64,000 bases of DNA from Lineus longissimus (taxonomy: Eukaryota > Nemertea > Pilidiophora > Heteronemertea > Lineidae): assembly GCF_910592395.1 (NCBI RefSeq), contig NC_088320.1:992001-1056000 (forward strand), in the 5' to 3' direction. Positions within the stretch are counted from its first letter, which is position 1. Each line of letters begins with the position of its first letter. The notes under the pieces are model-generated. The model was not told the origin of the DNA, searched no databases, and saw only the letters and a list, made by a program, of their open reading frames with translations. This document shows, one piece after another, positions 2,025 to 4,314 of the stretch. The position numbers and the translations under genes are program-made.

Positions 2025-2109
2025 CTTGCAAATGATGACCAATTTTTTCCCCAGCTTATCGATAGATGCTGATTCAGTGCTATGTCAAGCCAAATTCTCC
2101 TGATGCAAG
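2025..2109 (+). ncRNA. Box C/D snoRNA-like gene, copy 1 (NACA 5'-UTR intron)
   Basis: C box ATGATGA at 2032-2038, D box CTGA at 2100-2103, terminal stem CTTGCA (2025-2030) with TGCAAG (2104-2109), and an internal CTGA that can act as D'. It lies about 100 bp upstream of the AG at 2211-2212 that precedes the start-codon exon. Least like the others: GATAGATG before the internal CTGA and AAATTCTC before the D box. Confidence 0.75.
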
Positions 2110-2213
2110 CAAAATAACTTTTCTTGTCAATTCCAGTTGGGGAAGATCAATCAGATCTCTGGGACGATATCAATCAGATGAGTTGAGTTATACTGATTGT
2201 GGTTCTTTTCAGA

Positions 2214-4314
2214 ATGACTTCCGACGCTGTTGAGAAGCCTGTTGAGGATGTGAAGTTGGAGGATGCCAACGACAACTCCGGCACAGAGTCTGATTCGGAG
2301 GAATCCGTACCGGAATTGGAAGACGCTGATGGCCACACAGCAACCAGTCCAGGGGTAGGTAGTAGTCTGTTGTCTGTAATCAGGTATATGTAAATGTTGG
2401 TATGTCAAGATGGCACTGTTCTGAAGTAAAGATATTCTGTTGAAAAGAAACCTGAGATACTTGCAAATGATGACTTATTTTTTCCCCAGCTTATCGAAAA
2501 ATGCTGATTCTGTGCTATGTCAAGCCAATTCAACCTGATGCAAGTAACAGATGCCTTCAACTGAGGAGTATAAACACAACTTTTCAACCTTCTTTTGAGG
2601 TACTAGGGATGACTCTGATTTAAATGAGTCAGAACCAACTGACCAACTTCAGGTCAGTGGTTAAGATTTTGACTTTAAATCTGTTTTTCATTTTCACAGG
2701 TGTCGGCCACCACCGGTGTTCATGAGGAGCCAATCAGCAGAGCAAAACAAAGTCGAAGTGAGAAAAAGGCCAGGAAAGCTCTTATCAAGCACAGTGAGTG
2801 ACTCAAATGTGATGGTTCAACAACCACTTGCATCTCCTCCATCAGATCAATGTCCTGCAAATGATGACTAATTTTTTCCCCAGCTTATCGACAAATGCTG
2901 ATTCAGTGCTATGTCAAGCCAATTCAACCTGATGCAAGACTGAAGTTGTCTAAGCTCAAAAGTTAATGGTTGTGAATGAACTCTTTCAGTTTGTTGATTT
3001 GTTTTACAGACCTGCGGCCGGTTACAGGAGTCACCCGTGTTACCATCAGAAAAGCTAAGAACATCTTATTTGTGATCCCTAAGGCTGATGTTTACAAAAG
3101 TCCTGCATCGGACACATATATCATATTCGGAGAGGCCAAGGTAAAGATATACCAGGTTGTGATGGTCAAATTGACAGAACTTGGGAGTAAAAGTACAGTG
3201 CGACCTTGCTGTGTGCATGTACTTGCACATCAAATCAATGTCTTGCAAATGATGACTAATTTTTTCCCCAGCTTATCGACAAATGCTGATTCAGTGCTAT
3301 GTCAAGCCAATTCAACCTGATGCAAGACAAAACAGACATACGGCCATATTTTTCCTGACTGAACTTAAAAAGGTCGATGGCCCAGATTGGCCTCTATGTC
3401 AATGTGGAAAGATGTCAGTGCAGAATTGTTAAAACTGTTCTATTCTCTTCAGATTGAGGATCTTAGCAACCAGGCCCAAATTTCGGCCGCAGAAAAATTC
3501 AAATCCCCTGATGCTAATCCAGCTGGTGAGGGTCTCCCGAGCACCGTCTCGCAGCCTATTCAAGAAGAAGACGAAAATGATGATGAGGTAAGAAATGGGA
3601 TAACGTTTCACTTGCTTACCACCAATGTACAAAAGGATTTTTGGTGTATTCTGTTTAGCCTTGCTGTCTAACATGGCATGCAGGCAGTCTTGCAAATGAT
3701 GACTTATTTTTTCCCCAGCTTATCGACAAATGCTGATTCAGTGCTATGTCAAGCCAAATCTTCCTGATGCAAGACCATGAATATATATGTTACAGTAGAG
3801 CCTTGTAAACATCCCAAATTATAGGCAAACTATTCACAAGATTTTGTGTTGGAAGATTTTTCAGTTACGCAATCGTGATCATGTGTTCTACTCATGCTTT
3901 CAGGTTGATGAGACGGGTCTGTTATCTAATGACATTGAACTCGTTATGGAGCAAGCCAGTGTCAAACGGGCGAAGGCGGTCCGGGCGTTAAAAAATAATG
4001 AAAATGATATCGTAAATGCTATTATGGTAAGTATCCGGTTTAAACTTACTAGATTACTTGTTGTAAATGCTGCTGGGTCTTGCAAATGATGACTATTTTT
4101 TTCCCCATCTTATCGACAAATGCTGATTCAGTGCTATGTCAAGCCAATTCTACCTGATGCAAGACCCCAATAGACCGGCAGGGTTCAATTTGTATTGACC
4201 TAATGGTGAGGACATCTGTTAACCCTGAAATATTTGTTGACAGCAACTCCATGGTGCTCATTTGTCCCCGACTAATCCTTGTCCATCCTCTCTTTTCAGG
4301 AGTTGACGATGTAG
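2214..4314 (+). CDS. NACA: Nascent polypeptide-associated complex subunit alpha (NACA)
   Basis: Ribosome-associated chaperone subunit. It pairs with BTF3/NAC-beta at the tunnel exit and shields new chains from wrong ER targeting. Coding exons: 2214-2354, 2700-2793, 3010-3140, 3453-3587, 3904-4026, 4300-4314; all phases join, giving 212 residues (vertebrate NACA is about 215). Residues 1-50 are acidic; the basic [10 protein letters not shown] segment leads into the NAC beta-barrel ([34 protein letters not shown]); the C-terminal UBA helices include [20 protein letters not shown]. The last five-codon exon gives the family ending ELTM. A non-coding first exon must lie upstream because AG precedes the ATG by one base. 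All six introns carry one snoRNA-like copy. A clean AATAAA was not found after the stop. Confidence 0.96.
2460..2544 (+). ncRNA. Box C/D snoRNA-like gene, copy 2 (NACA intron 2)
   Basis: Same ~85-nt sequence between exons 2214-2354 and 2700-2793. C box ATGATGA near 2466-2472, D box CTGA at 2535-2538, stem CTTGCA/TGCAAG at the ends. Its own changes are GAAAAATG before the internal CTGA and CTGTG for CAGTG just after it. Confidence 0.78.
2855..2938 (+). ncRNA. Box C/D snoRNA-like gene, copy 3 (NACA intron 3)
   Basis: Shortest host intron (2794-3009). C box ATGATGA follows CTGCAA; D box CTGA at 2929-2932; TGCAAG closes the stem, with one mismatch in the outer pairs (GTCCTGCA against TGCAAGAC). 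The D box lies about 75 nt from the 3' splice site, a usual distance for intron-encoded C/D snoRNAs of vertebrates. Confidence 0.78.
3241..3327 (+). ncRNA. Box C/D snoRNA-like gene, copy 4 (NACA intron 4)
   Basis: C box ATGATGA at 3249-3255, internal CTGA at 3286-3289, D box CTGA at 3317-3320. The ends pair as GTCTTGCA/TGCAAGAC (8 bp). The interior matches copy 3, so these two are probably the most recent duplicates. Confidence 0.8.
3688..3774 (+). ncRNA. Box C/D snoRNA-like gene, copy 5 (NACA intron 5)
   Basis: Same family in the intron between exons 3453-3587 and 3904-4026. Ends pair as GTCTTGCA/TGCAAGAC; D box CTGA at 3764-3767. The bases before the D box (AAATCTTC) differ from copies 2-4. 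Confidence 0.78.
4076..4166 (+). ncRNA. Box C/D snoRNA-like gene, copy 6 (NACA intron 6)
   Basis: Best terminal stem of the set: GGTCTTGCA at 4076-4084 pairs perfectly with TGCAAGACC at the 3' end (9 bp). The C box ATGATGA and D box CTGA are intact. It differs at CCATCTTATC (others CCAGCTTATC) in the region upstream of the internal CTGA. Confidence 0.8.

Follow-up and report, generated by a model that had tools for sequence, protein, structure and literature searches.

The NACA gene of Lineus longissimus contains one box C/D snoRNA of the SNORD12 family in each of its six recognisable introns. We consider it highly probable (about 0.88 for the account as a whole) that these sequences are paralogous SNORD12 genes, which are transcribed together with NACA, guide methylation of the LSU rRNA, arose as duplicates from intron to intron and are kept by purifying selection. 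The window, that is the whole stretch of 64,000 nucleotides analysed here, corresponds to C13:992001-1056000 in an assembly of 391,118,348 bases and 30 contigs.

Six SNORD12 copies in the introns of NACA

The host gene is the NACA of L. longissimus, as its spliced translation of 212 amino acids is 100% identical to an L. longissimus NACA-like protein at NCBI (Table 1). All five coding introns hold one snoRNA copy each, and the remaining copy lies in an intron of the 5'-UTR, whose best candidate donor is probably the GTGAGT at 1976. The count of six out of six refers to the introns that can be recognised from the sequence, and the gene may have others in its 5' or 3' UTR.

Table 1. Coordinates of NACA, of its snoRNA copies and of other snoRNA arrays in the same genome. 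Positions are those of the window; for the last three rows the contig region is given, with local positions within it.
Feature	Position	Strand	Basis or remark
NACA coding region	2214..4314	+	Spliced translation, 212 aa
NACA coding exons	2214-2354, 2700-2793, 3010-3140, 3453-3587, 3904-4026, 4300-4314	+	Identity to the NCBI protein
NACA 5'-UTR intron	1976..2212	+	Probable donor GTGAGT at 1976; clear acceptor TTTTCAG, ending at 2212
SNORD12 copy 1 (5'-UTR intron)	2022..2112	+	RF00581, 35.3 bits, below the gathering score of 43; boxes in register
Parts of copy 1	C 2032-2038, guide 2043-2052, D' 2055-2058, C' 2066-2072, D 2100-2103	+
SNORD12 copy 2 (intron after the first coding exon)	2457..2547; C 2467-2473, guide 2478-2487, D 2535-2538	+	45.3 bits
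SNORD12 copy 3	2851..2941; C 2861-2867, guide 2872-2881, D 2929-2932	+	45.6 bits; C.A mismatch in the stem
SNORD12 copy 4	3239..3329; C 3249-3255, guide 3260-3269, D 3317-3320	+	52.1 bits
SNORD12 copy 5	3686..3776; C 3696-3702, guide 3707-3716, D 3764-3767	+	48.3 bits
SNORD12 copy 6	4076..4166; C 4086-4092, guide 4097-4106, D 4154-4157	+	59.1 bits
Three SNORA73/U17 in HSC70	C13:4829000-4837000, local 2408-2645, 4614-4851, 5485-5722	minus	Profile matches
Five SNORA73/U17 at CCT4 (TCP-1 delta)	C3:6083500-6091500, local 3458-5646	minus	Profile matches
Mixed snoRNA region: three SNORD14/U14 (one above gathering), SNORD36, SNORD79	C17:11717500-11725500	one strand	ORF list shows no obvious coding host

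The six copies lie on the sense strand, are 91 nt long each and align without gaps, with a pairwise identity of 89-99% over an 83-nt core. The same elements were observed in all of them, in the same order and at the same positions: C box ATGATGA, guide TTTTTTCCCC, D' box CTTA, C' box ATGCTGA, an invariant TGTCAAGCCAA and D box CTGA. The Rfam model of SNORD12 (RF00581) matches the six copies over the full length of the model, and five of them score above the gathering value of 43 (45.3-59.1 bits). Copy 1 fails this score when taken alone, yet it is 89-93% identical to the other copies. Judged from their sequence, the six are paralogous SNORD12 RNAs (snR190 / snR107 / HBII-99), a known family and not a new guide. 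A further search result concerns snoZ103 (RF00149), which gave a match below threshold with all six copies (23.4-28.2 bits, as compared to a gathering score of 44) and has the stretches TTTCCCCAG, ATCGA and TCAAGCCA in common with them.

The sequence-only reading of this DNA had described one and the same sense-strand element in every NACA intron, with C box ATGATGA and D box CTGA, and had suggested a covariance search of Rfam; the alignment, the constant box positions and the RF00581 matches bear it out on these points. One of its details had to be amended. The internal CTGA that it listed is present, but it forms the last four letters of C' (ATGCTGA). Judged by the Rfam alignment and by the geometry of the guide, D' falls on CTTA, and the internal CTGA was rejected as a D' box. 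Both D' and C' are degenerate and non-canonical but invariant in the six copies, and 10 nt separate the CTTA of D' from the CTGA of C'. The closing stem agrees with its earlier description (6-9 bp): it runs without interruption over 6, 8, 9, 8 and 10 bp in copies 1, 2, 4, 5 and 6, respectively (G.T allowed), whereas in copy 3 it is interrupted by a C.A mismatch after 4 bp.

The 32 columns occupied by C, guide, D', C' and D show no variation, as compared to 11 variable ones among the other 40 columns outside the stem (Fisher p 8e-4). In the closing stem, both sides are changed in some copy in three of the nine pairs. When covariation was expressed by five measures, 18, 40, 94, 94 and 21 of 500 shuffles, respectively, were as good as the real copies; with only six sequences to compare, stem covariation alone is weak evidence. 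Copy 1, which scores below the gathering value, and copy 3, with its mismatched stem, could each be weak or dead. This stem mismatch, together with the low score of copy 1 (35.3 bits, the lowest, in the most diverged copy), would also suit a reading in which only one or two copies are functional, the others being pseudogenes under drift. We consider this unlikely, although it deserves some weight; each of the six copies has kept C, guide, D', C' and D intact.

According to the account that we favour, the six copies would be transcribed together with the NACA pre-mRNA. As in established snoRNA biology, each intron would then be spliced, debranched and trimmed by exonucleases to give a snoRNP of about 80-90 nt, with one snoRNA per intron and six per transcript. 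The snoRNP is predicted to bind 15.5K, Nop56, Nop58 and fibrillarin.

Predicted target in the LSU rRNA

The guide located upstream of D' is complementary to the conserved LSU GGGGAAAGAA over 10 bp, including one G.U (-14.6 kcal/mol). The pairing energy is equal in all six copies, and none of 500 shuffled guides was as good. The LSU sequence used for this pairing comes from an IMG/VR contig that matches eukaryotic LSU, and is not the worm's own: the target was taken from another eukaryote because the LSU of the worm was not found in the assembly, in whose 30 contigs a search for the corresponding rRNA stretch (with 0 and up to 3 mismatches) gave no match. The rDNA may be missing, withheld or different in this assembly. 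In the Rfam consensus of the eukaryotic LSU, GGGGAAAGAAGACCC appears in upper case.

The guide nucleotide five positions upstream of D' faces the nucleotide that is methylated (D'+5 rule). With this geometry, pairing of the guide would direct 2'-O-methylation to a predicted site that is the third G of GGGG in LSU GGGGAAAG. The predicted mark would correspond to Gm3878 of human 28S and to G2395 of yeast, at the root of domain V and near the peptidyl transferase centre. Yeast snR190 is predicted to act on G2395, and C2392 lies near this position (PMC8536666); we infer that C2392 is the C of GCGGGG, which would make the third G G2395. Gm3878 is set by human SNORD12C (PMC7243338), while fission-yeast snR107 sets Gm2483, corresponding to G2395 (PMC11971394), and a counterpart in Neurospora is listed for Gm2357 of 26S (PMC2780460). 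The orthology of snR107, snR190 and SNORD12, their guide (ASE1) and their target are treated in the portions of PMC11971394 and PMC8536666 drawn on here. The site of yeast Gm2815 (snR38) had been considered as a target and was dropped, as the chicken table of PMC2653536 names snR190 as the counterpart.

Yeast snR190, whose guide is linked to D', acts as a chaperone and does not methylate (PMC8536666). Because this relative is a non-methylating chaperone, methylation of the LSU by the NACA copies is likely in the worm rather than proven. The six RNAs might be SNORD12 by descent and serve mainly as rRNA-folding chaperones or placeholders in early pre-60S particles, as budding-yeast snR190 does. 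In fact, snR190 has the corresponding guide, yet yeast G2395 is described as unmethylated (PMC8536666), and the second antisense element of fission-yeast snR107 is needed for 60S biogenesis (PMC11971394). The TGTCAAGCCAA that follows C' on its 3' side is invariant in the six copies. Of the three LSU segments tried, it pairs with a nearby one better than do 98% of 500 shuffles; it may give a second contact with the rRNA. However, the stretch just before D, where the second antisense element is expected, is variable among the copies (columns 73, 75-77). For copy 4, the pairing of the second element (a 14-mer shared with copies 2 and 3) gave a p of 0.078 with respect to shuffles, on an LSU segment without domain I; for copy 1, it reached -17.2 kcal/mol near the end of the LSU segment used, a value with no shuffle control. 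Moreover, human SNORD12C (PMC7243338) and fission-yeast snR107 (PMC11971394) do guide methylation. A chaperone role in place of methylation appears, on balance, improbable.

Alternatively, each copy might pair with the intron that holds it and thereby regulate NACA splicing, by analogy with SNORD2 in EIF4A2, for which the mechanism exists (PMC10324135). Two pairings would agree with this: the guide of copy 1 with 2134-2147 in intron 1 (-18.7 kcal/mol, p 0.005, 200 shuffles) and the second element of copy 4 with 3152-3177 in intron 4 (-21.3 kcal/mol, reached by 0 of 200 shuffles). On the other hand, 22 of the 24 tests of a snoRNA segment against its own intron were without p <= 0.03, and the pairing is unlike from copy to copy, which makes such a role very unlikely. 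The complementarity to the LSU, identical in the six copies, points to the guide function that we favour.

Copy number and spread within the gene

A DNA search of the whole assembly with the 91-nt unit (E up to 10) found six places, all of them in NACA. The RF00581 search of the assembly gave at least five matches, five out of five in NACA, and missed copy 1; in this search 57 of 36070 first-look candidates were scored, so that the counts are lower bounds and diverged copies may be present elsewhere. In the controls of the same search, a signal below the cut-off was obtained in one of 14 genomes (Sulfolobus acidocaldarius). When the guide pattern was searched genome-wide with up to two mismatches, 18 places were found; the six perfect ones are those of NACA and the other 12 have two mismatches, as compared to 16 places for the reversed control. 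A model built from the six copies gave no match on four of these 12 places, and a search for the NACA snoRNA in viral contigs gave no match. Within the 64 kb, a scan of both strands for RTGATGA ... CTGA with a stem of at least 6 bp returned five matches, each of them a copy in NACA; the one not detected was copy 3, owing to the mismatch in its stem.

These counts bear on the idea that the unit is a dispersed repeat or retroposon which lies in NACA by chance. Retroposition of snoRNAs is known in human and platypus (PMC2653536), and a run of AAAA follows copies 1 and 4. The sequence-only reading had named many copies elsewhere as the mark of a dispersed repeat; they were looked for in the 391-Mb assembly, and the DNA and RF00581 matches are confined to NACA. 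The places of the guide pattern outside NACA all carry two mismatches and are fewer than those of the reversed control (12 vs. 16), and inspection by eye showed no long A-tail after any of the six copies. The confinement of the matches to NACA, in searches that score the best candidates, and the absence of a long A-tail contradict this origin, and we give it next to no weight.

The intron sequence outside the unit had been described as unalike, and we found no convincing similarity there after 30 tests. For whole intron halves the smallest p in 30 comparisons was 0.005. For 50-nt flanks, p was < 0.05 in four of 30 comparisons; the lowest value, with none of 300 shuffles as good, came from an exact match of 9 nt that copies 4 and 5 share on their upstream side. 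One detail resembles an exception: copies 3 and 4, which lie in neighbouring introns and are 99% identical, have 10 of 11 nt in common directly upstream of the unit, and this suggests the border of a recent duplication.

Copying between NACA introns, as the sequence-only reading proposed, is well supported by the paralogy, the conserved boxes and the six genome-wide matches, all in NACA. The copies would have spread from intron to intron inside the gene by duplication, and such duplication in cis fits the fact that no copy was found outside NACA. Box C/D families duplicate mostly in cis, within the same host (PMC8178906). Purifying selection would then keep the copies in NACA. Selection for dosage is a plausible, still putative, addition; the observation itself is that boxes and guide are conserved throughout the six copies.

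Some weaker or separate observations were made along the way. The six-copy model gave an extra match at 35736-35837 of the window (12.9 bits) and three in C17:11717500-11725500 (25.1, 16.1 and 13.7 bits, the first overlapping a SNORD36 match), which we take as chance or general C/D likeness. Elsewhere in the window there are two microRNA matches far below the gathering score, a 57-bp tandem repeat of 15 copies (49552-50389) that is open in several reading frames, and further tandem arrays at 9339-9826, 18346-19385, 21203-21927 and 37415-37757. On the plus strand, a long open frame at 54721-56121 encodes a domain of the LicD family (PF04991), and C-type-lectin-like open frames follow in a run on the minus strand (58105-63226), where both pieces tested match PF00059.

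Precedents, other arrays and meaning

The arrangement in NACA is already known in kind. In Xenopus laevis, each of the six RPS8 introns holds U17, or SNORA73 (Cecconi et al. 1994, cited in PMC7601244); as in NACA, a gene for a translation-related protein has one snoRNA repeated throughout its six introns, whereas the snoRNA class (H/ACA) and the host are different. The chicken counterpart of HBII-99 (GGgCD57) lies in introns 1-4 of one EST host, with the guide listed on the 5' (D') side (PMC2653536), and human ZFAS1 carries three members, SNORD12, SNORD12B and SNORD12C, in consecutive introns (PMC8178906, PMC11971394). These two hosts share with NACA the RNA family and the presence of several paralogues in successive introns, but NACA is a protein-coding host, belongs to a protostome and holds six copies as compared to three or four. 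In three sponges, four snoRNAs were duplicated to neighbouring introns of ribosomal-protein genes (PMC3412847), which is also within-host duplication in an invertebrate, although it concerns neighbouring introns and not six, as well as other snoRNAs and hosts. The yeast RNAs snR190 (S. cerevisiae) and snR107 (S. pombe) have an orthologous family and guide in common with the worm copies (site G2395 / Gm2483); in the portions of PMC8536666 and PMC11971394 drawn on here, they differ in being encoded beside U14 and not multiplied in one protein-coding host, and snR190 in being non-methylating.

The sequence-only reading had presented the arrangement as unfamiliar. This holds for the host, as a limited search of the open-licence literature brought up, among the matches listed, no description of snoRNAs hosted by NACA (the word NACA occurs in one of these matches, a cancer paper on circRNA, PMC10870583), and no paper on Lineus snoRNAs was found in the literature searched; it does not hold for the kind of arrangement, given RPS8, the chicken host and ZFAS1. 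The NACA array is a new example rather than a surprise, since the RNA is known and similar within-gene copying is found in frog and chicken.

Three families were searched genome-wide in the worm, with the best candidates scored, and all three (SNORD12, SNORA73 and SNORD14) are multiplied near or within one host. SNORA73/U17 gave at least eight matches in two clusters, eight out of eight above the cut-off and all on the strand of the host. The introns of HSC70 were placed by eye from ORFs, two of which were confirmed by a family or structure-database match; in the part of the chicken list drawn on here, U14, not U17, is given for the introns of HSPA8 (PMC2653536). At CCT4, three copies lie in tandem, with a spacing of 337 nt, in one intron between exon pieces that abut in the CCT-delta profile, and the other two lie 3' of these, in a position not assigned with respect to the exons. 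Both arrays resemble that of NACA, in that one snoRNA family is multiplied at one host, and differ from it in being H/ACA and not one per intron. SNORD14/U14 gave at least four matches, two above the cut-off; three are within 1.2 kb on one strand, and one is in a spectrin-like gene, which was named by eye from ORFs and of which one piece, scanned against NCBIfam, gave no match.

With NACA and HSC70, CCT4 is the third chaperone-type host. It is conceivable, but doubtful, that genes for co-translational folding factors (NACA, HSC70, CCT4) are dedicated hosts in nemerteans that multiply single snoRNA families, coupling the supply of ribosome-assembly guides to chaperone output, with six SNORD12 kept for dosage.

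NACA offers a clean assembly-level case of a box C/D snoRNA that, by duplication inside its host gene, has come to fill the introns recognisable there. Since its copies lie in different introns of one transcript and differ by a few bases, the locus could be used to measure the effect of intron context on snoRNA output. It could also show whether a higher copy number leads to more methylation at a position which is unmethylated in yeast.
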